From positions 434,001 to 498,000 of the forward strand of contig OZ004588.1 in NCBI GenBank assembly GCA_963924555.1: a stretch of 64,000 nt of DNA. The letters run 5' to 3'. The translations under genes and the position numbers were made by a program. The notes below the pieces were generated by a model, which ran no database searches, was not told the origin of the DNA, and worked only from the letters and a program-made list of their open reading frames with translations. This stretch comes from Crambe crambe (lineage: Eukaryota; Porifera; Demospongiae; Poecilosclerida; Crambeidae). Of this stretch, positions 1 to 64,000 are shown one piece after another; positions within the stretch are counted from its first letter, which is position 1; each line of letters starts with the position of its first letter.

Positions 1-471
1 TATCGACGAATGTGATGCTCTTATTGATGACTGTGACCAGAGTGCCAAGTGCACCAATACTCCTGGGAGCTTCACCTGTACCTGTAACCAAGGATACAGT
101 GGAAATGGAATCACCTGTACTGGTATGAATGCTATATGCTTATTAGAACTCAAAAGTGAGATCATATTTTATAGATATTAATGAGTGCATATTTGAAAAT
201 TGTGGCTCCAATTCCACTTGCACCAACATTCCTGGGAGCTTCACCTGTGCCTGTGATCAAGGATACAGTGGAGATGGGAAAGTCTGTTTGGGTGAGAGGG
301 AATGATATCTTGCATGGAACATGTGCCCTATAGCTCTTGAAAATATAGATATTGATGAATGTGAGACTGATGGTGATGAATGTGATCCCAATGCTAGATG
401 TATAAATATTCCTGGAAGCTTCACCTGTGCCTGTAACCAAGGATACAGTGGAGATGGATTCACTTGTAAAG
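1..471 (+). CDS. Gene A: three calcium-binding EGF exons
   Basis: Exons <1-122, 175-291 and 349-471, each one EGF with six Cys. The starts IDEC/DINEC/DIDEC match the calcium-binding consensus, and CxNxxGSFTCxC matches the Asp/Asn beta-hydroxylation consensus of cbEGF domains. The first exon is cut by the window edge. The third is a chimera: its 5' half ([11 protein letters not shown]) matches the fourth EGF of genes B and C, while its 3' half ([20 protein letters not shown]) matches their fifth EGF, so an exchange happened inside the exon without loss of frame or of any Cys. Confidence 0.88.
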
Positions 472-3400
472 GTAGAGCTAGCTATAGCTAATTGCTTCGC
501 CCATTTTCTGAGAGTTGACCACTGATTAGAAATATTGGGGCTGAACCAGCCACGGTCTATCAGTTGGGTATCCTGTCTCTCAGTGGTCCCAAACCACTTA
601 AAACATCTGCACCACCATTTTTATCAGAAGTTTGACAGTTGGGTGTTCCCTGTCTCAGTGATCCAAAACTATCTGCACCATATTTTATCAGAAGTTTGAA
701 GCAGGGTAGATTTGTAGGTTAATCTGTAAATGTGTGGTTGTTGATCATGCCACCACAAGAGGAGGAGGAGGAGGAGGAGGGAAGAAAGTGTCTTTCTGAT
801 TTTGGAAAGCTTGTTCTGATACAATGTTACAGTAACCACATCCTTCCATGGTATCTATAGATCATGCCTGCTATGTACATGATAACTATCTTTTCCTGTA
901 CCTTAAGGCTTAGGTGTCTCTATCACCATCTCCTACACACCTCCTGATCAGTACCCTGATTACTCCCCTCCCAACTATCGTGCTGCCTCCTCAGTCACTC
1001 TGCGCTGTGTGGCTTCTGGGACCAATGGCTCAGTCTCTTATAGCTGGTCCTCCACTTGCAATGGCTGCTTTACTTCTAGTTCATCATCCAGTGTTACTTC
1101 ATCCAAAAAATTTAGACATTGACGAGTGTGTGGTTGGTTCTCACGACTGTGGCCCTAATGCTAGATGTATAAATATTCCTGGAAGCTTCACCTGTGCCTG
1201 TAACCAAGGATACAGTGGAGATGGATTCACTTGTAAAGGTAGAGCTAGCTATAGCTAATTGCTTCTGAGAGTTGACCACTGATTAGAAATATTGGGGCTG
1301 AACCAGCCACGGTCTATCAGTTGGGTATCCTGTTCCCAAACCACTTAAAACATCTGCACCACCATTTTTATCAGAAGTTTGACAGTTGGGTGTTCCCTGT
1401 CTCAGTATCTGCACCTAATTTTATCAGAAGTTTGAAGCAGGGTAGATTTGTAGGTTAATCTATAAATGTGTGGTTGTTGATCATGCCACCACAAGAGGAG
1501 GAGGAGGAGGGGGAAAGCTTGTTCTGATACAATGTTACAGTAACCACATCCTTCCATGGTATCTATAGATCATGCCTGCTATGTACATGATAACTATCTT
1601 TTCCTGTACCTTAAGGCTTAGGTGTCTCTATCACCATCTCCTACACACCTCCTGATCAGTACCCTGATTACTCCCCTCCCAACTATCGTGCTGCCTCCTC
1701 AGTCACTCTGCGCTGTGTGGCTTCTGGGACCAATGGCTCAGTCTCTTATAGCTGGTCCTCCACTTGCAATGGCTGCTTTACTTCTAGTTCATCATCCAGT
1801 GTTGTCTCTGAAACCCTGTTGAGGACTCGTGATGCCGGAGTGCACACTTGCACAGTCACTGATAGTCAGGGGAATGAAGGAAGTGCTTCTGTACAGATGA
1901 ACATTGTTGGTAAGGGGTAAAACAACAGAGTAATCCACATACATGCTTAGCTATTTATATTTCATATTTTCAGGCATTGGCATACACCTGGTTAAGTACC
2001 ACACTGCACTGAGAGATGGACCCAACCCTAATAACACATTTGTATCAGTTGACACAACCTACGGTCAAGAGAGATATCAACGACTCGATTTCTACTGTTG
2101 CTCAAACTCCAATTCGTCAAATTTGGGATTCTTAAGAACACCTTCTGGGGTTGTACATTATGACAGCTTCCAGGATTTCCAACTTATTAAACACACCTCC
2201 AGCAGTGAGTATGCTGGTTGTATGCAAGTGGTTATCAGTACATCTCAGTCAACCAACCACACCTTACCGGAGTCTGGTGTCTACACCTGCCAACTGCTGG
2301 ACAATGCGGGAAAAGCCCGGGAAGCAATGATAGCTTTATACCCTCAAGATTATAATGGTATGATATGAGATTCTGTCCTGAATACATAATGATATTCATG
2401 GTAAATTTTTATGGTTATATATTGCTGGACCATGATTATCATAATTATCAGCTACACTAACTATTACAGGCTTAACCCTTTATCTTTGTGCCTCTCATTG
2501 TATACAGTTTTGCCTACTGTCTACATTCTCCGCACTGGTCCAATCGCCATTTCCTGCTTCTCCAGTGGAATACCTCCAACAAACATCAGTTGGTACCGGA
2601 ATGGAAAAAGGATTAGTGCCAATGGAGGTACGGTCAGGACAAGCCAGCAGGTGACTGATTATGGACGGTCATTGTACAATAACACTATCTTCATTGGTGG
2701 TGATGAAGTGGTGGGATCTTTCCACTGTCAAATATCTGACCACTTTGGAAGAAGGAACAGCTCACATGTCTCAATTCAAGGTAGCTTTGACAATTTTTTT
2801 TTTTTATGATGAAAATGCTCACCATAATTTTGGAAATGTCTGTTTGTTTTATTGATTTGGGTGTTTGTTTTATTTTCTTCAAAATTTGTTTGTCTCTCCT
2901 TTGTTTTATCTACTTTGTTTATTAGGAGCACAAATCATAACTACTAGCAATTATTCAAATCTGGTGATTGGAAGGAGCTTTTCTCTCAGTTGCTATAGTG
3001 ATCTTGAAATCTCATCCATAGAGTTGTTTTATGGGAACAGAAGTGTTCTTAGATCATTTCGAAACAGACAAATCACATTCCAGCACTCTGTGTCAACCGA
3101 TGATGAAGGAATGTTATATCGTTGCTTAGTGACCAGCCAACCAGATTCAGCCATTCAAGAGAAAAGTATAACTCTCTCTGTAGGAGCTAGTAAGTGGTAT
3201 TATCCCAAAATGGAAGTGAATAAGTGTGGCCCAGCTGCCATAAATGAACTGCTACATCTGCCACATAACTCTACACTTATGTTCTCTCCACTAGTTCCAC
3301 ATCATTGGGGAAATGTTTCCATCACTACCACACACTCTGCAAGCAATGTCCTCACTTTAATGTGCACTGTGAGGCCCATCACTGGAATGAGGCTTGTCCC

Positions 3401-12038: not shown

Positions 12039-14952
12039 ATGAAGAGTTATTTCCTTCTTCTCTCTGCATTAAGCTGCTGTTACTCCTCAGGTAAAAACAG
12101 CTCTAAAGGTGCAATGCAGCTAGCTATATATCTCAGGAGTATATATCTACATATAGTAATGGGATTTTCTGACATTGCATTTTTAGTGTTTGTCCAAGCA
12201 CAAAATGGGATCAGCATCAGTAGTTTTCCTAGTCCTCTGTACTTCAAGACGGGGGACAGTTTATCCATCATTTGTGAGTATACCGGAAATCTGGTCTTCC
12301 AGCATTGGCTCCACCCCACTGATGGGATAATAGCAGCCTCACAGGGACGCAAGACAATACAGGTCTTTGATACTATCATCTTCCTCACTATTATTGATGC
12401 TCAGGAGAGTGATGGAGGAGACTATAGATGTATCTTCAGTAAGTCCATGAAGCAAAAATCATTGAAGAAAAATAGTTGTATAAGTTAGATATTAACCATT
12501 AATAGTGCTATGTATGTAGTTCCTAGTTAGCTTACTACTCTTGATGTATTATCACTCTGCAATGACTAGAGCAAGGTGATGCTACAAATGAGAGTCTTCC
12601 TCTGTCTGCTTTCTACCGGGTCCCTATAACACTTCATTCTCCTGCCTCCTCCAACAGCACAGTGACTGAGGGAGAGGATCTCAGCCTTGCTTGTGGTGCT
12701 TCCAACTTCTCTTCTCGCCGGTGGGTGAAGGTTTCTGACCCACAGATGCCAGTTGAAGTGGTGGCCAACAGTTCAGATGGACGGATAGTGATCACTCATG
12801 ACTTCCAGCTGCAGTTTAGGGAGATCCAATTGGAGGACAAGGCCATCTATAGGTGTGAACTCAGAAATGATATCGGACAGACACAGATTGAAATTAATGT
12901 GCAAGTCATAGGTGAGCTAACTGTGTTAAGCTATTTTCCAATGCTTACATAATCTGACATGCAGCTAGTGAAGGGTGTGAAGTCAACAGAAATAAATGTG
13001 ACTCAAATGCTTCATGTACTAATACAACTGGGAGCTTCACCTGTACATGTAACCAAGGATACAGTGGAGATGGATTCACCTGTGCTGGTAAATGCAGCTA
13101 GCTACAAGGGAAGTCTCTTTCTCATGCAAAAATCACACATAGCTACATGTAATTGTAAGCTAATACCTATGTATACATCATGGAACATCTGTACACCCAG
13201 AACAGCAACTGTAATGTAATATGTAACAACTGTAACAGCTGGAACATCATGTTATAACAGCACGTGCATGCGCTCAGAGCATCATTTCAAAAACATAATG
13301 CAAATTTATACGAGTAAGCATCTGCACAGAGCACAGAGACAAATAATCATCTTCATTTTGCCTACACAGTATATAAAAACAAATGCACAACACCCAGACC
13401 ATTATAATTTTTTTCTCAAACCTTAGATGGAACCATTGCCTTATCTCAAGATGACAGTTCATTTTAGCCTCATTCCCAGGCTCTCAGTGAAGCGGGAAAT
13501 GCGGGGCCCACATTTCACGCTTTACTGAGAGCCTGGGAACAAGGCTCTACAGTTCATTCCAGCTTTCAATCAGAAATTATATCAAGAAAACACACAAATA
13601 CATTATCAAGCAATCCACCAAACATCTAACCATATGCATTGATCCGGATCATCCACAATGCCCTGCATTTATGTCATTTTTGTTCCCACCATTGATTTAT
13701 GTGATTTGTGGAGTCAGAAGTAGGTGAAACCTAATAAAATAACCAACTCTATATGTACTTACACAGTTTCACAATCATAAGCTTTGAAGTAACAAGTCTG
13801 TTTTTTTTTAATTTGGACTTAAGAATTGCCATTTCTATAATTATTACATCAATGACTTTAGCTAAATTAGTATTTAGCTATGTTTACGATCGTTACCTAC
13901 TGCCTCTGCTCTCGCTGCTTAAATCTCTTTTTGCTTTCTTACAAGCCTACTTGTGACTTTGTGGCATCTTTTCAGGTTTGCTGCCTTTTCAGATGCCTCT
14001 GCTCTCATTGCTTACCTAAGGCTTTCATGTTGGTTATCTTGCTCCCGGTACTTTCTCAATGATCATTAACTTCTTGTCTATTCTTGCTGCTTTACTTTTA
14101 GCTAGCTAAGCTGCATGGCTGAACTTAGCCTTGAACCCAGATTTTTTTTAAAAAGGAGATGCTACAGATGGTTAGGGTGCTTCCTGTACATGCTGGAATT
14201 AATTATCAACAGGCATAAAACATCGCTTTGTTCATCTCTACTAACTAATCTCTGAGTCACAACTGTAGTTTATGCATGTGCTGGTCCCATGAATGTTTTT
14301 AGATATTGATGAATGCGATGCTCTTACTGACAACTGTCACCATATTGCTGAGTGCACTAATGTTCCTGGGAGCTTCACCTGTACATGTAACCAAGGATAC
14401 AGTGGAGATGGAGTCACTTGTGACGGTATGAATTCTTATGCTTATTAAAACTCACCATGATCAAAAGTGAGATCATATTTATAGATATTAATGAGTGTCT
14501 TTTTGAAAATTGTGGCTCTAACTCCACTTGCACCAACACTCCTGGAAGCTTCACCTGTACCTGTAATCAAGGATACAGTGGAGATGGGAAAGTCTGTTTG
14601 GGTGAGATGGAACATCTTGCATCAAACATGTGTCCTAGCTCTTAAAAATACAGATATTCATGAATGTGAGACTGATGGTGATGAATGTGATCTCAATGCT
14701 TCATGCACGAACACTCCTGGAAGCTTCATCTGTGTGTGTAACCAAGGATACAGTGGAGATGGGAAAACCTGCAATGGTAATTAAGATGTTGTATTACAAG
14801 CAAGAGAATTACTTTGTCCAAAAATTTAGACATTGATGAGTGTGTGGTTGGTTCTCACAACTGTGACACTAATGCTAAATGTACAAATATTCCTGGTAGC
14901 TTCACCTGTGCCTGTAACCAAGGATACAGTGGAGATGGATTCACTTGTGAAG
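12039..14952 (+). CDS. Gene B 5' part: signal peptide, two Ig, five cbEGF
   Basis: Exon 1 (12039-12090) encodes [17 protein letters not shown], a clear signal peptide; a likely cleavage site is after VFVQA in exon 2. Exons 2 and 3 are one Ig each (LSIICEYTG ... [15 protein letters not shown] ... AIYRCEL). The EGF exons 12965-13087, 14303-14425, 14485-14601, 14654-14776 and 14830-14952 have six Cys, DIDEC-type starts and CxNxxGSFxCxC. In the fourth EGF the start reads DIHEC, a change in a calcium ligand position. Confidence 0.9.
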
Positions 14953-17900
14953 GTAGGGATATAATTGCTTCAATGAGTCATTATCATTGACCACTAATTA
15001 GAAATATTGGGGCTGAGCTGTATAGCCACAGTGGGTATTCCCTGTCTCAGTGGTCCCAAACCATACACCAATATTTGTAGGAGATGTGTGGCTGTTGTTA
15101 CCACATGAAGGGGAGGGTGTCTGGATGTAACATCATCAAAGAGGGGAGCAATTAATTAAAGTTGCTGCTAAGCTAGATCATGCTATATAGCTACCTATCC
15201 CTTGATGATAATTATATTATAGCTAATCTTATCCTGTATTTTAAGGCTTAGGTGTCTCTATCACCATCTCCTACACACCTCCTGATCAGTACCCTGACTA
15301 CTCCCCTCCCAACTATCGTGCTGCATCCTCAGTCACTCTAACCTGTGCAGCTTCAGGAACCAATGGCTCGATCTCTTATAGCTGGTCCTCCACATGCAAT
15401 GGCTGCTTTACTTCTAGTTCGTCATCCAGTGTTGTCTCTGAAATCCTGTTGAGGTCTCGTGATGCTGGAGTGCACACTTGCACAGTCACTGATAGTCTGG
15501 GGAATAAAGGAAGTGCTTCTGTACAGATGAACATTGTCGGTAAGGGGTAAAACAACAGAGTAATCCACATACATGCTTAGCTATTTATATTTTCAGGCAT
15601 TGGCATACACCTGGTTAAGTACCACACTGCACTGAGAGATGGACCCAACCCTAATAACACATTTGTATCAGTTGACACAACCTACAGTCAGGAGAGATAT
15701 CAACGACTCGACTTCTACTGCTGCTCAAACTCCAATTCATCAAATTTGGGATTTTTAAGAACACCTTCTGGGGTTGTACATTATGACAGTTTCCAGGATT
15801 TCCAACTTATTAAACACACCTCCAGCAGTGAGTATGCTGGTTGTATGCAAGTGGTTATCAGTACATCTCAGTCAACCAACCACACCTTACCGGAGTCTGG
15901 TGTCTACACCTGCCGACTGCTGGACAATGCGGGAAAAGCCCAGGAAGCAATGATAGCTTTATACCCTCAAGATTATAATGGTATGGTATGAAAAAAAAAT
16001 GACAAAGAATAATGGCACCATAATGAAATATTTGTGAGGAAATTTTTGTGATTATCAATAGAATATTTTTTTTCTTGACCATACGATTAATTTTCATTTC
16101 ATGCTGACTATTGAAACAATAGCCCCCAAATCACATAACACCCTTCAAAAGATATCTTTGTGCCTCTTGTTACAGTTTTGCCAACTATCAACATTCTCCG
16201 CACCAGTCCAATTGTCATTACATGCTTCTCCAGTGGAATACCCCCAACGAACATCAGCTGGTACCGGAATGAGAAAAAGATTAGCACCAATAGAGGTACA
16301 GTCAGGTTGAGCCAGCAGGTGACTGATTATGGAAGGTCATCATACAATAACACTATCTTCATTGGTGGTGATGAAGTGGTGGGATCTTTCCACTGTCAAA
16401 TATCCGACCACTTTGGAAGAAGAAACAGCTCAACTGTCTCAATTCAAGGTAGCTTTTACCATTATTAATAATGAAAATGTTCACCATGATTAAGGAAATA
16501 TCTGTTTATTAGTTTGTTTTGGTGTTCTTGTTGTTTGTGTGTGTTTGTGTATTTCTCTGTCTGTTGGCCTTTTATTTTATTTGCTTTTATAGGAACACAA
16601 ATCACAACTACTAGCAATTATTCAAATCTGGTGATTGGAAATAGCTTTTCTCTCAGTTGCTATAGTGATTTCGAAGTCTCATCCATAGAGTTGTTTTATG
16701 GGAACAGAAGTGTTCTTAGATCATTTCAAAATAGACAAATCACATTCTGGCACTCTCTCGTGTCAACTGATGATGAAGGAGTGTTATATCGTTGCTTAGT
16801 GACCAGCCAACCAGATTCAGCCATTCAAGAGAAAAATATAACTCTCTCTGTAGGAGGTAAGCAGTATTATCCCAAAATGGAAATGAATAAGTGTGCCCAG
16901 AATAGCTGCCAGGTGGTCCAGGAATGTATAGCTGTCACAAAAGAGCATTCTGCATGCACGAGTGCCAAGAAAATGGGCTTTACTGCTATTATAACTGTAT
17001 TGCTATTTCTTTCTCCCCACTAGTTCCATATAATTGGGGAAGTGTTTCCATCACCACACACTCTGCAAGCAATGTCCTCACTTTAGTGTGCACTGTGAGG
17101 CCCATCACTGGAATGAGGCTCATCCCTTCTATAGAGTGGGTGGGGCCTAATGGGATGAGTGATGGGAACTGGACCGTAGGTGAACTAATGACCCGAGGGA
17201 CAGTACATACCCTTCCCCTCTCCTTTGACTCCTTCGATCCCAGCTATGGAGGGAGGTACACATGCAGAGCAGCTGTCTCAGTCCCATGGATGGATGTACA
17301 GCCACCAACCATCTCTTCTTCATATGACTTACCAGTTATAGGTGAGTTTTAATATGTTACGTATAAAGAGTCACAGACATTGCTTATGATAATGGCTACA
17401 GATTTGAGTGTATCAATATCCATCTCCTACACACCTCCTGATCAGTACCCTGACTACTCCCCTCCCAACTATCGTGCTGCCTCCTCAGTCACTCTACGCT
17501 GTGTGGTCTCTGGTGCTGCTGGCAATGTCTCTTATCGCTGGTCCTCCACCTGCAGAAGCTGTTTTGCTTCTAGTTCCTCCTCCAGTTCAATATCAGAAGG
17601 CATGTTGAGGTCTCGCGATGCTGGAGTGCACACTTGCACAATCACTGATGGCATTGGGAACAGAAAAAATGTCTCCATACAGATGAACATTGTCGGTACG
17701 TTGAAATACGTAGTTAGAATTGCATCTTTTATGGAATGTTCTTCAATCAATTACATTTTATAGGTATTGGAATTCACTTAATCACTTATGAGTCTGCATT
17801 TACCAATGGATCCAATCCTAACAACTCCTATGCTACAGTAATTGAAAGATACTCAAGTCTGTCACTTACAAGACTCAGTCTTTACTGCTGCTCCAACTCT

Positions 17901-20900
17901 ACTGTATCCAATGTCGGTTCCTTCCTTGCCCCCGGAGGACAAAGTTTCAGACATACTATATCTAGATTTAGCAGCACTAACAGTTATGCAGGCTGCATCA
18001 GAGTCTCCATAAGCACCTCTAGGTACCGATCTTTCTCCTTCAGTCCAACTGGAATACACACATGCCGAATTCCAGACAGCAGTGGAAGAAACCAAGTGGC
18101 AATGTTGGGACTCTATAACAATTACATAGGTGGCTACAATAGATGAATACATTAAAATAAATTAATAGCATAGCTAATAATGTATACTGTGGGTAGCTAG
18201 TACATACCTAGTCCCATTCCATCCAACAAAAGAGCAAGATACTGTATGGTGCTTATTTTTCAAGGAGCGTCAAATGACGGGAGTTAATTTTAATAGTTAG
18301 GGGAAAATTACAGAAATGTATAATTATGATATGAACTTCTAGTTTCAAATAGTCTTGAGTTGAGGCTCGTTGGCTCCTCTAATTCTAACCGTGGTCGTCT
18401 GGAGATTAACTACAATGGAGTGTGGGGTACAGTGTGTGATGATGGTTTCAGCTACACTGAGGCCACCGTTGCTTGCAGACATCTTGGTTATTCAGGATAC
18501 AGTAGATATGGAAATGTTGGAACCTTAGGGTAAGGATACAACTTTAGTGCAGAGCCTCCAACCATACTGATCCATTAGTATTTACAGAAGAATTTAAGTA
18601 AACATATACTATACACATTTGCATTACTTATAAAATGCATGATGAAATACTGAAAATGGGAGTACTTTATCCTACTGAGGTTGGAGGCACTGATAGTGCA
18701 TAAACACTATAATGAATGAGGTGATTGAGGTCTTTCTTTGTCACACATGCAGCTATAGTCAAGGAATAGGAAGAATATGGCTGGATGATGTTAATTGCTA
18801 TAGTTATAGCACTCGACTATCAGCGTGCAGGCATCGTGGATGGGGTAGCCATAATTGTGGCCACAGTCAAGATGTTGCTCTGGAATGCTCCGGTGCTAGT
18901 TCTATCACTACTAACAGTGAGTACTTTCACAGTATAACTGATTCCAATTGATTGATAAATAAGAGGGTAAGAAGTCGTTTAGACGATTTCGAGTGATGCA
19001 TTCTCTTATGAGTGAAACACTGACACTCTACTTCATCTTATACCAATTAAGAGTCACTCAAGTTTTATTTTAATAAACAGCCTAGCAGTTTATCCTCCAG
19101 GGGGGCTAAAATTGGATTCTATAATTATATCAACCAAAAAAGTACCCTAGCCATTTTAGATTATAGAACTAGAGGCTGCTTAATTTTTGAAATTTATTTC
19201 TTATATACGTATGTATAGTAACTATCAGTCACGTACTCTCACTATCCTCCCTCACCGTCACCTGCCAATCTACTGGCAGTCCTCCAACTTTCATCACGTG
19301 GTACAGGAATGGGCAGAGCATTGACATCGATGGAAACAACTATAAACAAACCAAACAAGTGACGAATCCTCACACATCACACTACAACAATACACTGCTG
19401 ATCAGTGGTGTTCCCCTGAAGGATATGATTGGACGATATTATTGCCGCATATCTCTTGATAGATCAAGTAGAAGAAGCAGTTTATCTAGAGCTATCTCTG
19501 TTCAAGGTGAGAGTGCTACAGGGATGGGTGTAGTCATAGCAACATACACATTATTTTGAACTTTAGCGCTACAAATTGAAACAACGGGACACACTTCAAA
19601 TTTGTCGATTGGCAGTCAACTTGGACTCAATTGTTCAAAAGTCATTGAGGTAGAGTATCTTGAGTGGTATCGTGCCAGTTCAAACCTCACTAGGTCGTAT
19701 GAAGGTTTTTCTTTCATCGCTCATTTTGTGTCGACCGATGATCAAAACGTGCAGTTTAGGTGTTTGGGAATGACCCCAGGAGGCCGTATTGTGGATAATA
19801 ACATAACACTCTCTGTCAGAGGTAAAATATTCATCATGTTTCAGCTAGTTACATACATGCATGCCAGTCTTGCAGGGTTTTGTCTGGGAATTGATATTGG
19901 AAAAAAGTGGTAATTCACACAGGAATGGGTGAGGGGAAAGGGGCAGAGATAAGAACTATTTGCAGTGTTCTGGGTGGAAAATTAGACTTAGAGGGGATAT
20001 TCAAAGGTGTATAAGTAGCTAATGGAGACCATCTTGATTTACTATACAGTACCGGACGCTTGGGGTACTTCAGTCATCAATGCTGACTCAACGGGAGGTG
20101 CTCAGAATGGATCAGGATATACCTTGCTGTGTAACTTGAACGTCATTGCTGGCATGACACTCCACCCTACCATGGAGTGGGTGGGGCCTGATGGGACTGT
20201 GGTGAGGAGTGATGGTAACAGAACTGTAGTGGGCATGGTGAGGACCCAAGGGACCATCTCCACCATCTCCCTCTCCTTCAACCCCGTCCTCATCACTGAT
20301 GCAGGGACGTACACTTGCAGGGCAGCTGTCACTCTCCCACAGTCTTTTTACCAACCAAGGAATCTAATGACTTCATTTAATATGCCAGTAGCAAGTGAGC
20401 ACATAGATAATAGGTTATGTGACATCATGTGACATGCTTTAATTGACAGAGAGTCTTCAGGTTTCCATAGTAGCAGAGTCACTTCCATCTTCCTCCCCTT
20501 TGTACTACGTGGGGATTCCTCTCACCCTCACTTGTGCAGTTCAAGGAGGTTTATCTTCTTCAAGTGTCCAATATAAGTGGACCTCCTCCTGCACTGGAAA
20601 CTGCTTCCTCAAGGAAAGAGATGTTAATTCAAAAAATATTTCCACCAATTCTCTCCAGCTGAGTGATAGTGGTGTGTATACCTGCACCGTCTGTGACAAC
20701 AGATCAGACTGTGAAAATTCCACCATTGCCATCACTGTATCAGTCATTGGTAAGAATGTTACACAGCCATTTTTTATAAATGAATTTATGTTAGTAATCC
20801 TTTGACAGCCATCCTGTTCAATCCTGTTCATCCTGTTCCTTTATTTATTGAATTTTTTATTGTAATAGACATAAAGGTGTCGATATCCATCTCCTACACA

Positions 20901-46100: not shown

Positions 46101-47284
46101 CCTGCAACCGGTGAACCTCACCCCAGTCCAGACGTAGCTTTCCCAGCCAGTCTCGCCCAATCAGGCTTGGTCCGTCACCCTTGATCACCAACAGGGTACA
46201 CTGGACTTGCTGGTTGTTGTGCACCAACTGCACTTGAATTTTCCCGCAAATTTCCAGTCTTTCTCCTGTATAGGTCTGGATATTGATGGTGGAACGTTCG
46301 AGGGTGGGTGGATTCTGTTTCCAAAGTTTTTGGTATGTTTTCTCACTTATGATGGAACGTGAGGCTCCTGTATCAAGTTCCATGGTTGTTGTCACACCGT
46401 TCAGAGTTACTTTGAACTCGATGGGCTGACTAGCATTGCTGTTTAAGGTATACATTTGGTAAACATCAGAGTCGGTTTCCTCGGCTACTTGATCTTCTGA
46501 CTCCAGCAGGTTGGTCTGTTCTTTCTTGGACACTCTGTCTTTTTGCTTTGGCCGGCTCCGGCACACCTTCTTCAAGTGTCCCCTCTTGCCACAATTGTGA
46601 CACTCCACATCTCGGAATCGGCACTCCATGCCAGGGTGGTTACCACCACAGCGGTGACATGAGGAATGAACCATGTCCCTGGGCCTGGCCACTGCAGTTC
46701 CAGGGGTGTGCGATTTTTGTCGACTGACATGATGCACCCGGTTCTCTTGGTTCCCCGGTCTCTGGAGGTCTCGAGAGTCCTTGTCTGCTGATTCCATGGA
46801 TAGAGCGATTTCCACCGCACCGTCGTAGGTCAGTTTTGATTCAGTTAAAAGCTTCCTCTGAATATAGCGATCATTGATGCCGCATACTAATCGGTCCCTG
46901 AGTTGGTCATTGATAGAGTCTCCGAACTCACAATATTCCGCTAAGGTTCTCAGAGCGGCTAGGAATTCGCTCACCGACTCTCCTTGTTGTCTGACACGAG
47001 TGTTAAACTTATGTCTCTGGACGGTCACTGACGGCGGCGGATTGTGGTGCTTCGTGACCAGTTCCACTAGCTCGCTCCTCAAATGACTTCTCTTTCGGCT
47101 TGATTGGGGCAGTCAGACTTCGCATAAGATGATATGTAGGTCGCCCTACGGAGGATATCAGAGTAGCCCTCTTTTTCTCGGTCGCTGTGATGTCGTTTGC
47201 GATGAAGTGCTGTTCCAAGCGCTCCACATACTCGGTCCAAATCTCACTGGCGGCGTCGAACTCTCCGAAGCGGCGGCCTGACAT
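43177..47284 (-). CDS. gag-pol region of the gypsy element (fossil copy)
   Basis: Almost the whole interior is open on the minus strand: a short gag-start frame overlaps a long gag-pol frame of about 1300 codons. Domain order gag, protease, RT, RNase H, integrase identifies Ty3/gypsy. Treated here as part of a mobile-element copy, not as a host gene. Confidence 0.9.
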
Positions 47285-47311
47285 CCTGATCCCGTCCTCG
47301 TCGCCAATTTA

Positions 47312-47577
47312 TGTGGTATATTCACAGCTACAGATTGCTCTAGCTACTGCACCCAAGTATCTCAAATTGATAATTATTAAGAGAAGTAAAAGTATGCATA
47401 CAGAACCGGTATATATATATGACAGCACAACTCAGGGGCCCACGCCAGCTGGCCAATGATATAGAAAGTAACAGTTTACATAACATCTAGGTGACATACA
47501 CAAAAAGGTCCAAAGTTCAACACTAACATAGTAACACTATAAGAGTCAGAGTCCTTAATTAAAGTCACATTATTACA
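47312..47577 (-). repeat. LTR (5' LTR of the minus-strand element)
   Basis: 266 bp, the same sequence as the other LTR except one base. It joins the satellite block directly at 47578. Confidence 0.92.
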
Positions 47578-48078
47578 GCTAGTACAAACTATATCTGCAC
47601 TTGATGATCTATATCTCTATTTCTAGTTGAGGAACATTATTTTCTAAAAGATTAAGGACCCATGGCCGTTACTCTCCAAAAAGATAAGGTGTGTTCTGTT
47701 CCAATGGTCACCAGTATCCCCTATGCTAGTACAAACCATATCTGCACTTGATGATCTATATCTCTATCCCTAGTTGAGGAACATTGTTTTCTAGAAGGAG
47801 TTGATCAAGGACCCATGGCCGTTACTCTCCAAAAAAATAAGGTGCGTTCTGTTCCAATGATCACCAGTACCCTCTATGCATATACGAACTATATCTGCAC
47901 TTGATGATCTATTTCTCTATTCCTAGTTGAGGAACATTGTTTTCTAGAAAAGGAGTTGATTAAGGACCCATGGCCATTACTCTCCAAAAAGATAAGGTGT
48001 GTTCTGTTCCAATGGTCACCAGTATCCTCTATGCTAGTACAAACCATATCTGCACTTGATGATCTATATCTCTTTCTC
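47578..48078. repeat. 155-bp satellite, short array
   Basis: A little over three units with words GCACTTGATGATCTATATCT, AGTTGAGGAACATT and GGACCCATGGCCGTTACTCT. These are the reverse complement of the long array at 49561-52925. Confidence 0.9.
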
Positions 48079-48253
48079 GTGCCCAGGACACTCAGATGGA
48101 GTTGAGCTTCCCTGTATGTGCAATAATAGGAGGAGGTACAATCATATAAAATGCTACAATGATCAAGACTTGCTGATTCAGAAATTCTCCCTGAAGAGAA
48201 CATCTCTACCACCAGCTACTGAGAAATCTGACTCCAAAAAAAAACAAACAACA

Positions 48254-48295
<42 letters not shown>

Positions 48296-48371
48296 TTATG
48301 TTAATTAACAGCAGAAATGCACTCTTAATTACATACCTTTGATGAATACATGGTGTACCCATGCACTTGAA
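48079..48371. other. Unique segment with (AC)n
   Basis: No gene seen. (AC)n at about 48257-48290. Confidence 0.7.
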
Positions 48372-49390
48372 TGCTGACTACGTTGGATGCTACCAACCAG
48401 AGTTCAGGGCACCAGACTACCATACACGTTTCCACCCCATTACTTGCTGAATGCTACATTTCATGCTGAACGTTGGATGCTACCAGGGCACCAGACTACC
48501 ATACATGTTTCCACCCCATCACCTGCTGAATGCTACATTTCATGCTGAACGTTGGATGCTACCAACCAGAGTTCAGGGCACCAGACTACCATACACGTTT
48601 CCACCCCATCACCTGCTGAATGCTACATTTCATGCTGAACGTTGGATGCTACCAACCAGAGTTCAGGGCACCAGGTTACCATACACGTTTCCACTCCATT
48701 ACTTGCACATTTCATGCTGAACGTTGGATGCTACCAACCAGAGTTCAGGGCACCACACGTTTCCACCCCATTACCTGCTGAATGCTATATTTCATGATGC
48801 TGTTCAGGGCACCAGACTACCATACACGTTTCCACCCCATCACCTGCTGAATGCTACATTTCATGCTGAACGTTGGATGCTACCAACCAGAGTTTAGGGC
48901 ACCAGACTACCATACACGTTTCCACCCATCACCTGCTGAATGCTACATTTCATGCTGAGCGTTGGATGCTACCAACCAGAGTTCAGGGCACCAGACTACC
49001 ATACACGTTTCCACCCCATCACCTGCTGAATGCTACATTTCATGCTGAACGTTGGATGCTATCAACCAGAGTTCAGGGCACCACACGTTTCCACCCCATT
49101 ACCTGCTGAATGCTACATTTCATGATGCTACCAACCAGAGTTCAGGGCACCAGACTACCATACACGTTTCCACCCCATCACCTGCTGAATGCTACATTTC
49201 ATGCTGAACGTTGGATGCTACCAACCAGAGTTCAGGGCACCAGACTACCATACACGTTTCCACCCCATTACTTGCACATTTCATGCTGAACGTTGGATGC
49301 TACCAACCAGAGTTCAGGGACGTTGGATGCTACCAACCAGAGTTCAGGGCACCAGAATACCATACATGTTTCCACCCCATTACTTGATGT
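48372..49390. repeat. 90-bp minisatellite
   Basis: About 11 units (some shortened) with words CGTTGGATGCTACCAACCAG, AGTTCAGGGCACCAGACTAC and TTTCCACCCCATCACCTGC. The unit is a multiple of three, which creates long but meaningless open frames. Confidence 0.92.
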
Positions 49391-49560
49391 ACATCACTCC
49401 TTAAATTTCATGATGAATTAATAAGAAGTCATGGTATAGAATTTGCTTGCTAGCAAGTAATCATAGAAAAAAATGAACAGCATCCAGTTTCACAGAAGTG
49501 GCAGAAGTTTTTCAATCAGGCGGCAAAGAATTCACTCATCTCACTGCTCAGTAGTAAAAC
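49391..49560. other. Unique segment between satellites
   Basis: 170 bases; nothing recognised. Confidence 0.6.
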
Positions 49561-52500
49561 AGCCATGAGTTCCTCAACTAGATATATAGAAAGATAGATC
49601 ATGAAGTGCAGATGATTTGTACTAACATAGAGGATACTGGTGACCAAGCATACCTGAACATAATATAATGGTCATGGGTCCTTAATCAACTCCTCTTCTA
49701 GAAAACAATGTTCCTCAACTAGGAATAGAGATATAGATCACCAAGTGCAGATATAGTTTGTACTAGCAAAGAGGGTACTGGTGACCATTTGAACAAAACA
49801 CACCTTATCTTTTTGGAGAGTAACGGCCATGGGTCCTTAATCAACCCCTCTTATAGAAAACAATGTTCCTCAACTAGGAATAGAGATATAAATTGTCAAG
49901 TGCAGATATAGTTTGTACTAGCATAGAGGATAATAGTGACCATTGGAACAGAACGCACCTTATTTTTTTGGAGAGTAACGGCCATGGGTCCTTAATCAAC
50001 TCCTCTTCTAGAAAACAATGTTCCTCAACTAGGAATAGAAATATAGATCATCAAGTGCAGATATAGCATAGAGGATACTGGTGACCATTTGAACAGAACA
50101 TACCTTATCTTTTTGGAGAGTAACGGCCATGGGTCCTTAATCAACTCCTCTTCTAGAAAACAATGTTCCTCAACTAGGAATAGAAATATAGATCATCAAG
50201 TGCAGATATAGCATAGAGGGTACTGGTGACCATTTGAACAAAACACACCTTATCTTTTTGGAGAGTAACGGCCATGGGTCCTTAATCAACCCCTCTTATA
50301 GAAAACAATGTTCCTCAACTAGGAATAGAGATATAAATTGTCAAGTGCAGATATAGTTTGTACTAGCATAGAGGATAATAGTGACCATTGGAACAGAACG
50401 CACCTTATTTTTTTGGAGAGTAACGGCCATGGGTCCTTAATCAACTCCTCTTCTAGAAAACAATGTTCCTCAACTAGGAATAGAAATATAGATCATCAAG
50501 TGCAGATATAGCATAGAGGATACTGGTGACCATTTGAACAGAACATACCTTATCTTTTTGGAGAGTAACGGCCATGGGTCCTTAATCAACTCCTCTCCTA
50601 GAAAACAATGTTCTTCAACTAGGAATAGAGATATAGATCATCAAGTGCAGATATGGTATGGAGGATACTGGTGACCATTTGAACAGAACACACCTTATCT
50701 TTTTGGAGAGTAACGGCCATGGGTCCTTAATCAACTCCTCTTCTAGAAAACAATGTTCTTCAACTAGGAATAGAGATATAGATCATCAAGTGCAGATATA
50801 GTTCGTACTAGCATAGAGGGTACTGGTGACCGTCGCACCTTATCTTTTTGGAAAGTAACGGCCATGGGTCCTTAATCAACTCCTCTTCTAGAAAACAATG
50901 TTCATATAGTTTGTACTAGCATAGACGATAATGGTGACCATTGGAATAGAATGCACCTTATCTTTTTGGAGAGTAACAGCCATGGGTCCTTAATCAACTC
51001 CTCTTCTAGAAACCAATGTTCCTCAACTAGGAATAGAGATATAGATCATCAAGTGCAGATATAGTTTGTACTAGCATAGAGGGTACTGGTGCCCATTTGA
51101 ACAGAACACACCTTATCTTTTTGGAGAGTAACGGCCATGGGTCCTTAATCAACTCCTCTTCTAGAAAACAATGTTCCTCAACTAGGAATAGAAATATAGA
51201 TCATCAAGTGCAGATATAGCATAGAGGATACTGGTGACCATTTAAACAGAACATACCTTATCTTTTTGGAGAGTAACGGCCATGGGTCCTTAATCAACTC
51301 CTTCTAGAAAACAATGTTCCTCAACTAGGAATAGAGATATAGATCATTAAGTGCAGATATGGTATGGAGGATACTGGTGACCATTTGAACAGAACACACC
51401 TTATCTTTTTGGAGAGTAACGGCCATGGGTCCTTAATCAACTCCTCTTCTAGAAAACAATGTTCCTCAACTAGGAATAGAGATATAGATCATCAAGTGCA
51501 GATATAGTTCGTACTAGCATAGAGGGTACTGGTGACCGTCGCACCTTATCTTTTTGGAAAGTAACGGCCATGGGTCCTTAATCAACTCCTCTTCTAGAAA
51601 ACAATGTTCATATAGTTTGTACTAGCATAGACGATAATGGTGACCATTGGAACAGAATGCACCTTATTTTTTTGGAGAGTAACAGCCATGGGTCCTTAAT
51701 CAACTCCTCTTCTAGAAACCAATGTTCCTCAACTAGGAATAGAGAAATAGATCATCAAGTGCAGATATAGTTTGTACTAGCTTAGAGGATAATGGTGATC
51801 ATTTGAACAGAATGCACCTTATCTTTTGGAGAGTAACGGCCATGGGTCCCTCTTCTAGAAACGATGTTCCTCAACTAGGAATAGAGATATAGATCATCAA
51901 GTGCAGATATAGCTCGTACTAGCATAGAGGGTACTGGTGCCCATTTGAACAGAACGCACCTTATCTTTTTGGAGAGTAACGGCCATGGGTCCTTAATCAA
52001 CTCCTCTTCTAGAAAACAATGTTCCTCAACTAGGAATAGAAATATAAATCGTCAAGTGCAGATATGGTTTTAACTAGCATAGAGAATACTGGTGACCATT
52101 GGAACAGAACGCACCTTATCTTTTCAAATAGTAACAGCCATGGGTCCTTAATCAACCCCTCTTCTAGTAAACAATGTTCCTCAACTAGGAATAGAGATAT
52201 AGATCATCAAGTGCAGATATAGTTTGTACTAGCATAGAGGATAATGGTGACCATTTGAACAGAATGCACCTTATCTTTTGGAGCCATGGGTCCTTAATCA
52301 ACCCTCTTCTAGAAAACAATGTTCCTCAACTAGGAATAGAGATATACGTAGAACATCAAGTGCAGATATAGTTCGTACTAGCATATAGGGTACTGGTGAC
52401 CATTTGAACAGAACGCACCTTATCTTTTTGGAGAGTAACGGCCCATGGATCCTTAATCAACCCCTCTTCTAGAAAACAATGTTCCTCAACTAGGAATAGA

Positions 52501-52925
52501 GATATAAATCGTCAAATGCAGATATAGTTTTAACTAGCATAGAGAATACTGGTGACCATTGGAACAGAATGCACCTTATCTTTTCAAAGAGTAACAGCCA
52601 TGGGTCCTTAATCAACCCCTCTTCTAGTAAACAATGTTCCTCAACTAGGAATAGAGATATACATCATCAAGTGCAGATATAGTTTGTACTAGCATAGAGG
52701 ATAATGGTGATCATTGGAACAGAACGCACCTTATCTATTTGGAGAGTAACGGCTATGGGTCCTTAATCAACTCCTCTTCTAGAAAACAATGTTCCTCAAC
52801 TAGGAATAGTGATATAAATTATATATAGTTTATACTAGCATAGAGGATACTGGTGACCATTGGAACAGAATGCACCTTATCGTTTAGGACAGTAATGGCC
52901 ATGGATCCTTAATTTTTTTTGACCA
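49561..52925. repeat. 155-bp satellite, long array in opposite orientation
   Basis: About 22 units (145-155 bp; words CCATGGGTCCTTAATCAACT, AACAATGTTCCTCAACTAGG, ATCATCAAGTGCAGATATAG). Higher-order periods are visible: about 445 bp (49861 repeats at 50306) and about 706 bp (the variant gaccgtcgcacc near 50828 and 51534). Confidence 0.92.
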
Positions 52926-54274: not shown

Positions 54275-57200
54275 TTGCTTGTGTTGGTGGTCATGTTGCT
54301 AGTAACATCACAACATCTACGATGCAGCCTACTGTCTGGTCTCTTAATTATGAGGTATATCTTGGTACCTACTGGGCTCCCCATACATACAACGCAGGCA
54401 CAACTCACCTTGACTTCCACTGCAAGTTACACTTCCTCGGGACGATCAAAAAGATTATGGCCCACAAGTGAGCATGAAGGTGGTTCCAGTGGTGATCCTC
54501 CTAAGAGGAAACGAAGCCTTATATATCATCCCAATAGCATAGAATGCTTACCATGTATCCTGTGGAGACAGTCAGGAAGTGATCCTAACCTAAAACATTT
54601 ACATCCATTGAAAAATTCAAGGCATGTAGGTACAAATGCATTTGCTTTTTCACAGTATGCTCACTACGATAATGTAACCTTTAATTTGAGCAAGGACGAC
54701 TGTGTGTGTCACCCTTGCCATGTTGACTTTAAGAGGAAGTGCAACCAAGAGAATAAAAATTCCTAGGTGGGCAAAATTGAAAAATGAATTTTATAATGCC
54801 AAACATTGTATCTACTGTTGTGGGGACAAGTCAGAGTGTATGTGTGAACGCATACAACAATGGAGCCCAGATGAGTGGTACGGAGAAAATACATCCATTA
54901 CCACATGGAAAAAGTTTCTCTGTCTAACGGGAAAAATTGATCACACAATTTATGATCATGCAAATCACCTTTGCCGAATTCATTACAGGAGAATTTTTAA
55001 ACAGAAAAAGTTACAGATTTGTTCAATATCCAATTCCCTTGATACCCCTCTTGGAAATTGTTGTGATATAGTGCCTACTCCAGATCACATTAACACTGCA
55101 TTCCAATTAGAACACGGTGCAGTTGATTTCTTCGCATGGATATGTGACCAGTGTACTCTATGCTATACCAATGACATATGTCTAGAAAATCAATTAACCA
55201 CAGATTCCCAATCACATGACCCTATGACCTCACAAAAGTCACAACTATTGTTGAGCACCATAGAAAAGCTTAAAACTGATGGGGTAATTTTCATAAAAGA
55301 AGTATTGACGCTATACAAATCCATATTAAGCAATCTCAATATACCAAAAGGTCAACACGTCAAATTAAGTAGCTTAACTAAACATCATCACTACAAAATA
55401 CTTACTCCAACTACTACCACAGATGCATCTGGAAAAGCCATTTATGATGAAAAAAAATTTAATGCACACTCGCTACATTATGTATTTAAATTAAAAGAAG
55501 ATCAGTGGAAGAAAGAAAAGACTTGTTTAAGTATTGAGCACTTACAGGACTTAATTGGAAAACAAGTATCACTTTTTCCTACTAGCAAAGACTTTGATTA
55601 TACACAGCTTATTGATGAAGAAAGTAGCATAATGGAACTTGATAAATACTTTGACCCTGAACTATTTAATCTTATGAATTCAATAACTACTTCAAGGAAC
55701 TCCTCTAAACATAAAAGTTCACCTTTATATAAGGATTTACATAAATCAAGGTTACAGATGGCAATTTCAATATTGTCTTTCATAATGAATCCTCAGTGTT
55801 GTTTCCTTCAAACACTAACAGGACTCTTATGTTATGCATTATATTATGGCTTGCGGGATAAAGGCACTAAATGCAGGGCCGTAGCAAGCGCTCCGGTTGG
55901 TCAGGTTTTGGCCGGACCAACTTGGTCAAGGTTTATTGCAGTGGGTGTGGTTTCGCATGCACACAATAATCGCTTTGGCTGGCTTATTTAATTGTGATGG
56001 CTGCTAGTATTCCTCCCAACATGTACAAAGATGATTTTGACAAAGATCTTTTGCAAACCCAACTTCTAACTCTTGGAGTTAACTTTCAGCTGCAAGCGGA
56101 TGAAGGATTTTTGATACCAAGAACTTTCTGCTCTCTCTCAGGTGAAACGTCTTATCTTGGTTATGCCAGTCATTAGAACAATCTTTTAATGCCTTGAGGC
56201 ATGTCATGCATGGTGGATATTTGATGTAGAATAAGTCTCTGCTGCTGACCTGTGCAAGAAGCTTCTAGAAGTCGGACAAAAATAAGTATAATAATGATAA
56301 CAATCATAATAGTAAACACTATATTGACATTGGCATCAGAGAGCTTCAGGTCGCTGTTGTCTTGTTTGAATTTGCTACTACAGTATGACAAGAATGCTTG
56401 AACTAAATAAATTAATTAGGGATTCAGATCATCGAATTCTAATTAGGTTTACTAATATAATTATAATAAATGGGTGTGACTACCACGCCCAACATAAAGT
56501 GGGCACACCCATTTCCTGGCCTGACCAATTAAAATTTGCTTGCTACGGCCCTGAAATGCCTTGGGCTGCAGCTGCAGCATTGACCATATTCACTCCCATG
56601 GAGCCTTTTGGGTGAGCAGAAGACAGCCTATACAAAACCTCGACAAAAATCAAAAGTGGAGGCTCACCATTGACAACCTAAATTTTCATATGAGAATCTT
56701 CCAGAATCTGCAACAGGTGCAAACAAAATGCTTAATTTGCTAACATCCACCAGACTAGGCATCACCAGACTAGCCAGAACAACAATACCTTACCACTGAA
56801 ACAGCTGGTACATAAATCAGTTGTAAGTAGTATCATTCCACACATACCACCACAGGAGAGGAGTAGAGTAAAAGCAACTGGCAGTCATGAGAGCTACTAC
56901 TTCTTGGCAGTGTTATGCATGCACTGTAAAACGGCTGTCTCTCTCACCAACTGAACATATCAATACATTTTTAGAGGCTGTTCAAAACCTCATGCCTCAT
57001 TGGACACCCCATAAAAAGGACAATGTTGTCTATGCAAAATGTTGTCTATGCAACTATTGAAGAGGCACTGTCAGGTAGTATAGGTGACATAGAGGCATAC
57101 CTTACCAAGGTGAAAAAAGATCTTCACATTGGTGAACCTGACTATCCCAAACACATCACTATTGCTGGTGACCAACAGACTTTTGCCTTGATGAAGGAGC

Positions 57201-58768
57201 TACAAAGACAGTACCCCAATCAGTTTAGATGGATGCTGGTAATGCATGGTGATTGGCACACACTGCTGAAATAATACGTGATATATTGTGGGATGGTGGC
57301 TTCAAACAGTTGTGCTATGAATGTGGCCACAAAAAAATGCCAACCCAGTGGCAAGAAATACATATGCTGCTTCTTGTACTCCACCAGTCACTCTTACACA
57401 AGGCAGTAAATGTCTACAATGACACACATGAGGTTACTGCTGGTGACCCAAAAATATTTTGGGATTGGCTCTCAAAAGTGGCATCAGACATGAATGAGGA
57501 TCGAAACTCAAAATTTTGGTCCCGAATGATTCCATTCTTAAATGGGTATTTTGCTTATTTTGTGGCAATCAGATCAGGAAATTGGTTGCTACGAAATCCT
57601 GCTCTTAAAGCAGTAACCCCCTTATTTTTTGCTTACAACCATTACAAATATGAAGAGCTGGCTACCACAGCAATTATTGACTCACTTACCATTCCAGAGG
57701 AAGTAACAGCATGGTTCATGAAAGGTGGGTGGACAGTCAGTGCAAAAGGACAATCTAGCTTTAGATGAAGCCCATGAAAGCATGATTAATCTGCGGCTCA
57801 AAACCATCACCTCCAGACCATCACATTTCAGGACTGTAGAAATGTCTAATTTCATGTCATATCTTGACATTGTTGTACGAGGAATTGAGAGTAAGCTTTA
57901 CCATCATAAACAACTTGAACCTGTGCAATACAGAAAAGGATTTATTTGCCAGTGAGCAAAAAAAATGAATGATATGTTCAAAGACACTTACGTATTTGAA
58001 CAGAACAGAGAAAATCGGTCCCTTTATAATACCTTTTGTGCAGCAAAACAGCCCTTGGATTCGAAGTCAGTCTTGGATCTTTTGAGTGTAGGTGAAATAG
58101 GACAAGAACGGATGGAAAAGTTTGTAGCTTTGTACATACTTACTGGTTGTGACTATGTGAGTTCCTTTTACAGATGCTCAAAGAAAGCATTTTTGGAAAC
58201 TCTAATTGAAAATGTCGTCTTCATTTACCCAGATGGAAACTTACTGAAGACAATCTATGGAGAATTTCAGTGTATCAGAGAGGAAGCATGGATCCGACTG
58301 GTTACAGCTGTATACTACACAAAGTTCAAAAAATTCTTCAGGCATAAGTCAGTTGGAGAAACCTTCAGCCTGATAACCAATCATTCTGATTCACCAGAGG
58401 CACAGAGAATGCTATCTGCTGTGCAGTATACACCAGCTTCTAACACAGCTCTTGTGGCTTAGCATAAATTTGTTCGTCATGTTACCTATCATGTGCCCAA
58501 AGTAACAAAATTTCATGAATACAAACTTATACCTTCATATCAAGCACTTACATTACACTGTAAAAGAGCAGATTATGTTTTGAAACTCATTATGAGCACC
58601 CCATGGTATCAGTCACCATTTCTCCCCTGCTTTGAGCAGTTTGACTGGCACAAAGAAGACACAAACATCATGGTTACCTGGGATGAAGTGGACTCTGGAT
58701 CAGTAGAAAATGATTCAGATACTGACTCAGAAAGATCATATGATTCAACTGATTCTTCAGACTGCTAA
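54275..58768 (+). mobile_element. Decayed repeat-type gene, family unassigned, with TGCDY motif
   Basis: A series of plus-strand coding blocks in several frames. An N-terminal part is rich in paired Cys/His (CLPCILW, CHPCHVDF, HCIYCCGD, CMCERI), followed by a middle part to 55873. After a 680-bp insertion a later part begins near 57023 (GDQQTFALMKEL, HGDWH) and continues to 58462 with ALYILTGCDYVSSFY, which resembles the GxDY turn of XPG/FEN-type PIN nucleases. The last block (58493-58768) has HCKRADYVLK, MVTWDEVDSGS and a Ser/Asp-rich acidic tail. This layout recalls multicopy TGCD-motif proteins I associate with invertebrate repeats; the exact family is not known to me. It is broken several times. 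Confidence 0.6.
55874..56553. mobile_element. Nested 680-bp element with 16-bp inverted ends
   Basis: Perfect ends CAGGGCCGTAGCAAGC / GCTTGCTACGGCCCTG, flanked by AAATG on both sides (5-bp target duplication). Inside, at 55997, a frame reads MAASIPPNMYKDDFDKDLLQ, resembling the C-terminal part of hAT-type transposases. hAT5-like is a possible class (inference). It interrupts the repeat gene. Confidence 0.8.
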
Positions 58769-62694: not shown

Positions 62695-62963
62695 GATGTG
62701 GTCAGTTCACATTATTAAACCACATCCTAAAACCACACCCTAAAGCTGCTGTCACAATGTCTGTATGTGTACAGCAGCAGGTAAGCTGCCATCACAATGT
62801 CTGCATGTGTACAGCAGCAGGTAAGCTGCCATCACAATGTCTACATGTGTACAGCAGCAGAGATTTGTGGTAATGATCTGAGTGGCATGAATGGGTGTGG
62901 CTGACAGCATGCTTATATAAACTACTGCAGCTGCATGCAGATTGACAAAGTCTGCTTGCAATC
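62695..62963 (+). promoter_or_regulatory. Promoter region of gene D
   Basis: GATGTGGT (62695-62702) / ACCACATC (62719-62726), three exact-length 40-bp units (62741-62780, 62781-62820, 62821-62860), TATATAA at 62914-62920, 50 bases before the ATG. Confidence 0.73.
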
Positions 62964-64000
62964 ATGAAGAGTTATTTCCTTCTTCTCTCTGCATTAAGCT
63001 GCTGTTACTCCTCAGGTAAAAACAGCTCTAAAAGGTGCAATGCAGCTAGCTATATATCCCAGGAATATAGTTACAGGAACTAAAGAATTTCTAACATTTA
63101 CCATTCTGTTGTCCCCCAAGCACAAAATGGGATCAGCATCAGCAGTTTTCCTAGTCCTCTGTACTTCAAGATGGGGGACAGCTTATCCATCGTTTGTGAG
63201 TACTCGGGAGATCTGATCTTCCAGCATTGGCTTCACCCCACTGATGGGATAATAGCAGCCTCACAGGGACGCAAGGCCATACAGGTCTTCAATACTATTA
63301 TCTTCCTCATTATTATTGATGCTCAGGAGAGTGATGGAGGAGACTATAGATGTGTCTTCAGTAAGTCCATGAAATGTTAATTCATTAATTGCTAGAAGAA
63401 AAAATAGTTGTAGAGTTAACTAATTCTTAGTCAGCTATCTATTATTACTGCAATGACTAGAGCAAGGTGATGCTATGAATGAGAGTCTTCCTCTGTCTGC
63501 TTTCTACCGAGTCCCTATAACACTTCATTCTCCTGCCTCCTCCAACAGCACAGTGACTGAGGGAGAGGATCTCAGCCTTACCTGCAGTGCTTCCAACTTC
63601 TCTTCTCGCCGGTGGGTGAAGGTTTCTGACCCACAGACGCCGGTTGAAGTGGTGGCTAACAGTTCAGATGGACGGATAGTGATCACTCATGACTTCCAGC
63701 TACAGTTTAGGGAGATCAAATTGGAGGACGAGGCCGTCTATAGGTGTGAACTCATGAATGATATTGGACAGACACAGATAAAAGTTAATGTGCAAGTCAT
63801 AAGTGAGCTAACTGTGTTAAACTATTTCCAATGCTTACATAATGTGACATGCAGCTAGTGAAGGGTGTGAACTCAAATGTGACTCGAATGCTTCATGTAC
63901 TAATACTCCTGGGAGCTTCACCTGTACCTGTAACCAAGGATTCAGTGGAGATGGAGTCACTTGTGCCGGTAAATGCAGCTAGCTAGCTACAAAGGGAGGC
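62964..64000 (+). CDS. Gene D: 5' end of a fourth array member, cut by window
   Basis: Exons 62964-63015 ([17 protein letters not shown]), 63121-63360 (Ig 1), 63461-63802 (Ig 2) and 63855-63968 (EGF 1), phase 1 throughout. A deletion has removed the usual exon-2 acceptor and the VFVQ codons; the new acceptor gtcccccaag at 63111-63120 still gives frame (AQNGIS). The exon-3 donor reads aa|gtgag in place of ag|gtgag. The EGF is three codons shorter than in B and C (CELKCDSN). So far it looks functional and should continue past the window. Confidence 0.87.

Follow-up and report, generated by a model that had tools for sequence, protein, structure and literature searches.

The stretch of DNA analyzed here, referred to as the window (64,000 nucleotides, C11:434001-498000), belongs to the genome assembly of the sponge Crambe crambe (143.1 Mb in 119 contigs) and contains a tandem array of genes that code for giant proteins with immunoglobulin (Ig), EGF and SRCR domains. 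The flanks of the window were also read, and positions within them are denoted by negative coordinates or by coordinates above 64000. Self-comparison revealed collinear units, arranged head to tail and all on the plus strand, as had been proposed in the original prediction, which was made from the sequence of the window; expansion of the array, decay of copies and recombination between copies are supported as well. Unit A (-1662 to 9585) is nearly whole in the window, its first four exons (-1662 to -632) being outside. Gene B (12039-23884) is complete, with 28 exons for the signal, 18 Ig, five EGF, the SRCR, a linker and the terminal domain, and gene C (31093-42779), also complete, served as the reference model. 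Gene D (62964-74218) contributes to the window only its first ~1 kb (62964-64000: signal, IgN1, IgN2 and EGF1), and gene E (87035-98596) is complete in the flank. Thus, among the four long members that had been predicted, only B and C are whole in the window. The short fifth member of the prediction is perhaps the Ig exon and the terminal-domain exon found between B and C at 25.8-27.1 kb (25814-27126, plus strand), a probable relic of another copy. The dead copies expected between the members were found as relics of signal, Ig, EGF and terminal exons in the spacers; for example, the spacer at 27526-30064 (plus strand) carries relics of a signal exon, IgN2 and EGF, and resembles the spacer at 9.8-11.8 kb. 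A signal-peptide-like first exon, judged by eye, is present in all five units A-E. Further distant relatives lie on both sides of the array; one of them, at ~C11:352-364 kb, is long, lies on the minus strand and has EGF and no SRCR match.

Domain architecture and divergence of the copies

Gene models were taken from a second gene prediction, after which gene C was spliced by hand; a first, over-permissive gene finder fused the whole window, retroelement stretches included, into one false gene and was rejected. Gene C consists of 28 exons separated by 27 introns, all of them GT-AG and 25 of them in phase 1, with no internal stop; the coding sequence of 6957 nt, including the stop codon, yields a protein of 2318 amino acids (aa), in line with the predicted size of about 2300 aa. 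The order of the domains, all on the plus strand, is as follows: a signal peptide (31093-31144; 17 aa, called by eye), two Ig domains, five EGF exons (32017-33245), module a (Ig1a, Igcca, Ig2a, Ig3a and Ig4a; 33926-36061), module b (Ig1b, Igccb, Ig2b, Ig3b and Ig4b; 36118-39277), a single Ig5 followed by module c (Ig1c, Igccc, Ig2c, Ig3c and Ig4c; 39333-42097), a short linker exon, and a terminal exon (42471-42779) that encodes a cysteine-rich domain and in which the stop codon is located one residue past the last conserved cysteine. The SRCR domain, encoded by two exons (37056-37815), is inserted in module b, between Igccb and Ig2b. The totals, 18 Ig, five EGF and one SRCR, are those originally predicted; the C-terminal cysteine-rich domain had been overlooked.

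Pfam Ig models match 15 of the 18 Ig exons of gene C (E ≤ 0.0061); the remaining three, all of the Igcc type, have no Pfam Ig model match. One Igcc copy was modelled (predicted local distance difference test score, pLDDT, 67.8), and its top fold match in PDB is the first Ig domain of NCAM2 (E = 5.5e-5, TM-score 0.48 by query), so that this copy is predicted to have the Ig fold. The SRCR domain belongs to the SRCR superfamily, with 102.6 bits for PF00530 compared to the curated cut-off of 26.1. Four of the five EGF domains open with D-I-[D/N]-E, which we take to be a calcium motif. The protein contains 45 N-glycosylation sequons and 96 cysteines. No membrane segment was found in it, no 19-aa stretch exceeding a mean hydropathy of 1.51. 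Neither VWA nor Calx-beta was matched when the exons of gene C were scanned against Pfam, and the first domain past the signal is Ig.

The domain formula of gene C is also true of B and E, both of which keep all 28 exons in frame with splice sites, three of these exons (two in B, one in E) having been placed by hand. Units A and D depart from it. Unit A has the signal, 18 Ig, five EGF and the terminal domain, and lacks both SRCR exons; it carries an extra duplicated stretch of EGF and partial Ig (340-1803), and two of its acceptors (EGF1 and Ig2b) are shifted, alternatives having been spotted by eye. Unit A may have lost the SRCR, or it may have split off before the SRCR insertion. Gene D is missing EGF2, Ig3b and Ig4b; what is left of Ig3b, its start, is joined in frame to Ig5, and the EGF5 donor is altered.

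Between units, exons diverge by 3-8% and introns by 4-20%, exons being more alike than introns in all 10 pairs. Since B, C and E retain all frames and splice sites despite this divergence, the array is not a product of chance. Synonymous divergence between units is 0.06-0.14, and the pairwise ratio of nonsynonymous to synonymous substitution rates (dN/dS) is 0.34-0.46 over 1895-2285 codons, i.e., the copies are under purifying selection overall. Positive selection was not found by the pooled exon-wise dN/dS. The center of the protein, including the SRCR, has a dN/dS of 0.64 compared to 0.33 elsewhere; it should be noted that this region was picked after the exon results and that the pairs are not independent. 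The relationships of the copies change along the gene: over the 5' half the partners of D are C and E, and at the 3' end D groups with A. The run test for mosaicism was significant in all pairs (p ≤ 0.001 in nine of the 10, 0.004 in the tenth). The copies are recombination mosaics.

Terminal domain in secreted and membrane proteins

The terminal cysteine-rich domain occurs in 85 rows genome-wide (E ≤ 0.01), 18 of which are on C11 (17 loci) and 67 on other contigs. In an alignment of 24 rows, C13, C15, R40, W61, C81 and C93 are invariant and C29 is nearly invariant, the conserved positions including a CxC. Scanning these 24 members against Pfam yielded no match beyond the chance level (best E = 0.079), and no match was found among PDB sequences at E ≤ 5. 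The order of secondary structures looked like that of SEA, but none of the 24 members had a Pfam SEA match and this assignment was rejected. An AlphaFold model of the domain was too poor for use (pLDDT 42.6).

A transmembrane (TM) segment was called when the Kyte-Doolittle mean over 19 aa exceeded 1.6 in frame with the domain and ahead of the stop, and the loci read for it were all 17 on C11 and 34 of the 67 rows on other contigs. None of the 17 C11 loci has a TM segment, compared to 31 of the 34 other loci (those without it are C12:4625749, C12:3387683 and C18:1962033). The stop codon lies at most two residues from the last conserved cysteine in 15 of the 17 C11 loci, the other two being frameshifted. 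Together with the hydropathy of gene C, these counts bear out the proposal that the array proteins are secreted and have no membrane anchor. The possibility of a TM exon downstream of the stop was discarded after three frames were read by eye in A-E and no such exon proved common to all copies; B has a hydrophobic frame at 24.1 kb, which a stop interrupts in E. By these sequence criteria, many members of the family with this common terminal domain are predicted membrane proteins, and those of the C11 array are of the secreted type.

A tree of the domain was built from 49 rows, i.e., 15 C11 loci and the 34 from other contigs; of the two C11 loci omitted, one is frameshifted and the other is partial. 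The 15 C11 rows and C12:4625749 form one clade (support 96/89), in which C12:4625749 is nested at 99/96. Most likely, the membrane anchor was lost once, in the secreted C11 branch, the direction of the change being an interpretation of an unrooted tree. One membrane relative, at C12:520.5 kb, has Ig and FN3 exons nearby (read as exons only), together with a tail exon in which three Yxx(L/I/V/M) motifs occur. Tyrosine-motif tails of this kind were seen, by eye and without a chance control, in three of the nine TM loci that were scanned downstream, two of the three being near-identical. Another membrane relative (L029, C12:463.5-464.9 kb) has a long Thr/Pro-rich, mucin-like stretch ahead of the terminal domain.

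Exon histories: Ig1, SRCR and neighboring elements

The five exon types of the modules have not evolved alike. In gene C, the synonymous distance between modules is 0.40-0.45 for Ig1 (0.41-0.65 in B), and none of the other four exon types of the modules has a value below 1.03 in B and C. A second locus on the same contig (M locus; C11:4.889-4.906 Mb), 4.4 Mb away, contains six modules, M1-M6. The Igcc exons of these modules form three positional pairs, with 84-94% aa identity within pairs and 47-59% between pairs. The Ig1 exons of M1, M3, M4 and M6, which span two of the three positions, are 92-96% identical in aa and 94-97% in nucleotides (nt); for M1 and M3, nt identity is 97% in Ig1 versus 62% in Igcc. 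In the M3/M4 comparison, the Ig1 exon is 94.8% identical, the flanking intron sequence is 55-69% identical upstream and 58% downstream, and the nt identity of Ig2 and Ig4 is 65% and 57%, respectively. Exons located only 50-60 bp from Ig1 differ by ~40% between modules, and the comparisons contained one like flank, that of M4/M5 (85% over 30 nt upstream of Ig1). The Ig1 tree rejects grouping by Igcc position (approximately unbiased test, p-AU 0.008 and 0.0195; 0.0047 with three M modules), with the groups defined after the trees were viewed and the M clade in the Ig1 tree supported at 88/88 only. Because the Ig1 exons are alike at synonymous sites, protein constraint alone is insufficient, which argues for exon-limited gene conversion. 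Most likely, judging from these sequence comparisons, Ig1 is kept alike by gene conversion confined to its exon, with the other Ig domains diverging. Elsewhere, at C13:2.29-2.43 Mb, there are four broken fragments of Igcc exons with 69-71% identity and one or two stops apiece.

The genome was also searched for SRCR, and 150 of 2506 candidates were scored. Among these, the closest SRCR exons outside the array are on C21 (3.82 Mb) and in an array on C3, with more on C10 and C18. The C21 domain has 77% identity across almost its entire length and shows stops when its two exons are read through. The C3 array (8.87-8.97 Mb) extends over ~100 kb and contains many two-exon SRCR domains that, among the matches listed, are 56-88% identical to the SRCR of the window. 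The identity of up to 88% to exons of the C3 array suggests that the window SRCR, which occupies a phase-1 slot within module b of gene C, was acquired by exon shuffling. When the best 150 of 1138 candidates were scored for I-set domains, two more large arrays were seen, one at C9:2.62-3.41 Mb and the other at C13:3.59-3.87 Mb.

The remainder of the window contains other elements. A long terminal repeat (LTR) retroelement is located at 42886-47577, ~105 bp past the stop of gene C; its minus-strand frame matches reverse transcriptase, RNase H and an integrase zinc-binding domain, and its 266-bp LTRs are 99.6% identical, indicative of a recent insertion. Immediately after it, satellite-like tandem blocks with periods of ~90, 145-155 and 300 bp occupy 47578-52913. 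A group of open frames at 54690-58765, three of them without a Pfam match, is perhaps an unclassified mobile element; part of the first frame gives 13 rows, including itself, on eight contigs, several with stops. Mitochondrial atp9 is a sponge marker among animals, and the mitochondrial contig of the same assembly carries an ATP-synthase c gene, along with a cox1 with seven in-frame TGA codons, in agreement with a sponge origin of the sequence.

Possible roles of the array proteins

Taken together, these results make it somewhat probable that the array encodes a secreted, multivalent recognition or adhesion protein akin to membrane Ig receptors; the function, the ligand and the multivalency we infer from sequence. 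A secreted role of this kind is favored because of the secretion, the repeated domains, the capture of the SRCR and the terminal domain shared with membrane proteins. The recombining tandem array encodes giant secreted-type proteins whose terminal domain is common with a large family that includes many predicted membrane proteins; the anchor would have been lost once in the C11 branch. The product, soluble or matrix-bound, may act in the mesohyl as the secreted counterpart of membrane Ig receptors, with the repeated Ig1 as a shared face for docking or self-association, and with the divergent Ig domains and the SRCR binding ligands such as microbial surfaces or cell-surface glycans.

Several observations weigh against this interpretation. 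The homogenization of Ig1 is incomplete: in M2 and M5, which occupy the second position, the Ig1 exons have 94% mutual aa identity and 81-84% aa identity to the rest. The conflict between the trees is one-sided, that is, the Igcc tree does not reject a single M clade with six modules (p = 0.094; 0.0465 with three). The terminal-domain tree has 97 columns, is unrooted, with the root placed arbitrarily, and has many long branches, so a gain of the anchor is possible. C12:3387683 and C18:1962033 are also without TM in the same exon; they are outside the secreted clade, on long branches of unsure placement. Six of the nine TM loci scanned downstream had no convincing tail exon. Finally, in the pooled pairs no exon has a dN/dS above 1 (the maxima are 0.89 for Ig1b and 0.79 for SRCR2), which is no sign of arms-race diversification; given the purifying selection, a structural role would be plausible too and hypervariable allorecognition is less likely.

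A structural role has a real, if minor, chance of being the correct explanation. The array would then encode matrix or adhesion proteins of the hemicentin or fibulin type, with copies serving dosage or tissue specialization and no recognition. Such a role is consistent with secretion, with the long run of Ig and calcium-type EGF domains, with the purifying dN/dS values and with exons that are more alike than introns. However, the copy-specific domain losses in A and D, the relics in the spacers and the many dispersed relatives are unusual for a core matrix gene, and the terminal domain recurs in predicted membrane proteins, a few of which may have tyrosine-motif tails. Hemicentin has an N-terminal VWA and a run of Ig domains, followed by C-terminal calcium-binding EGF domains and a fibulin-type module. 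The array proteins resemble hemicentin and other Ig-EGF matrix proteins, the architecture of which is taken here from general knowledge, in being secreted and in the long Ig run with calcium-type EGF; unlike hemicentin, they show no VWA match, have EGF near the N-terminus, contain an SRCR and an unclassified terminal domain, and come from a multicopy array.

An allorecognition complex, in which polymorphic determinants of self and non-self act on contact between individuals, appears improbable. The array proteins are presumably longer than the Alr proteins of Hydractinia. The Hydractinia complex, as described in the accessible text of PMC11067881, consists of clustered genes of the immunoglobulin superfamily with pseudogenes, and the array likewise combines such clustered genes with relics and recombination. 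However, Alr1 and Alr2 are given there as single-pass membrane proteins, and the array proteins are secreted and contain EGF and SRCR; the original prediction had already pointed to this difference, which holds in that gene C and all 17 C11 terminal exons are devoid of a membrane anchor. The purifying dN/dS between copies, with no pooled exon above 1, is also unlike that of a hypervariable allodeterminant. The sequence lends no support to a function in defence or allorecognition, to which the original prediction had likened the array. An assembly artefact, by which haplotypes of a single gene would have been lined up in the contig, is very hard to believe: the units are similar and collinear, but they differ in synonymous sites (0.06-0.14), in domain losses and in spacer contents (e.g., the retroelement behind C), and their mosaic relationships shift along the gene.

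Other known systems are comparable to the array in part. The sponge aggregation factor carries Calx-beta repeats, which found no match in gene C. Sponge Ig-like adhesion molecules have been discussed in the context of self and non-self; these and the receptor tyrosine kinase of Geodia have short ectodomains, and the kinase is membrane-bound. The Ig-bearing receptor tyrosine kinase of Geodia, compared here by description only (accessible part of PMC12018476), is a sponge protein with Ig-like extracellular domains from the same context. In Dscam, Ig exons are duplicated as well and the term gene conversion is used in the portion available (PMC3236188); the diversity of Dscam comes from alternative splicing, whereas in the array the duplications are of whole genes, with a single Ig exon type homogenized. 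The SRCR superfamily of Amphimedon includes 296 genes, 158 of them in tandem arrays, with EGF_CA as the commonest partner domain (PMC10855680, from the sections at hand). The array shares with these expansions the sponge host, the SRCR, its pairing with calcium-type EGF and tandem duplication; unlike them, it carries the SRCR as a single guest among 18 Ig domains, and one copy has no SRCR at all, the family being defined by the Ig modules and the terminal domain. As the original prediction had presumed, no described system with this architecture was found in our literature searches, which covered few of the subscription journals. In Aplysina, one SRCR gene was upregulated by microbial elicitors, and the same source cites over 30 SRCR genes in Amphimedon (PMC6208332, accessible text); the terms SRCR, scavenger, immunoglobulin and Ig domain are not used in the available text of an Amphimedon graft study (PMC5450542).

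Going beyond a secreted recognition or adhesion protein, we offer a tentative and on the whole unlikely proposal for a sponge recognition system. In this system, a branch of the membrane Ig receptors, of which some carry tyrosine-motif tails, would have dispensed with its anchor and multiplied in the form of giant soluble receptors; Ig1 would be held alike by exon-limited conversion as a self-docking or homophilic face, and the neighboring Ig domains and the shuffled-in SRCR would provide variable recognition. If this proposal is true, constancy and variety would both be made by conversion acting on single exons. To our knowledge, the molecular basis of self/non-self and microbe discrimination in sponges is largely unknown. 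The locus offers named exons, one gene family split into secreted and membrane proteins, an extracellular domain that has relatives neither in Pfam nor among PDB sequences, and neighboring Ig exons of one gene that would appear to be under different evolutionary rules.

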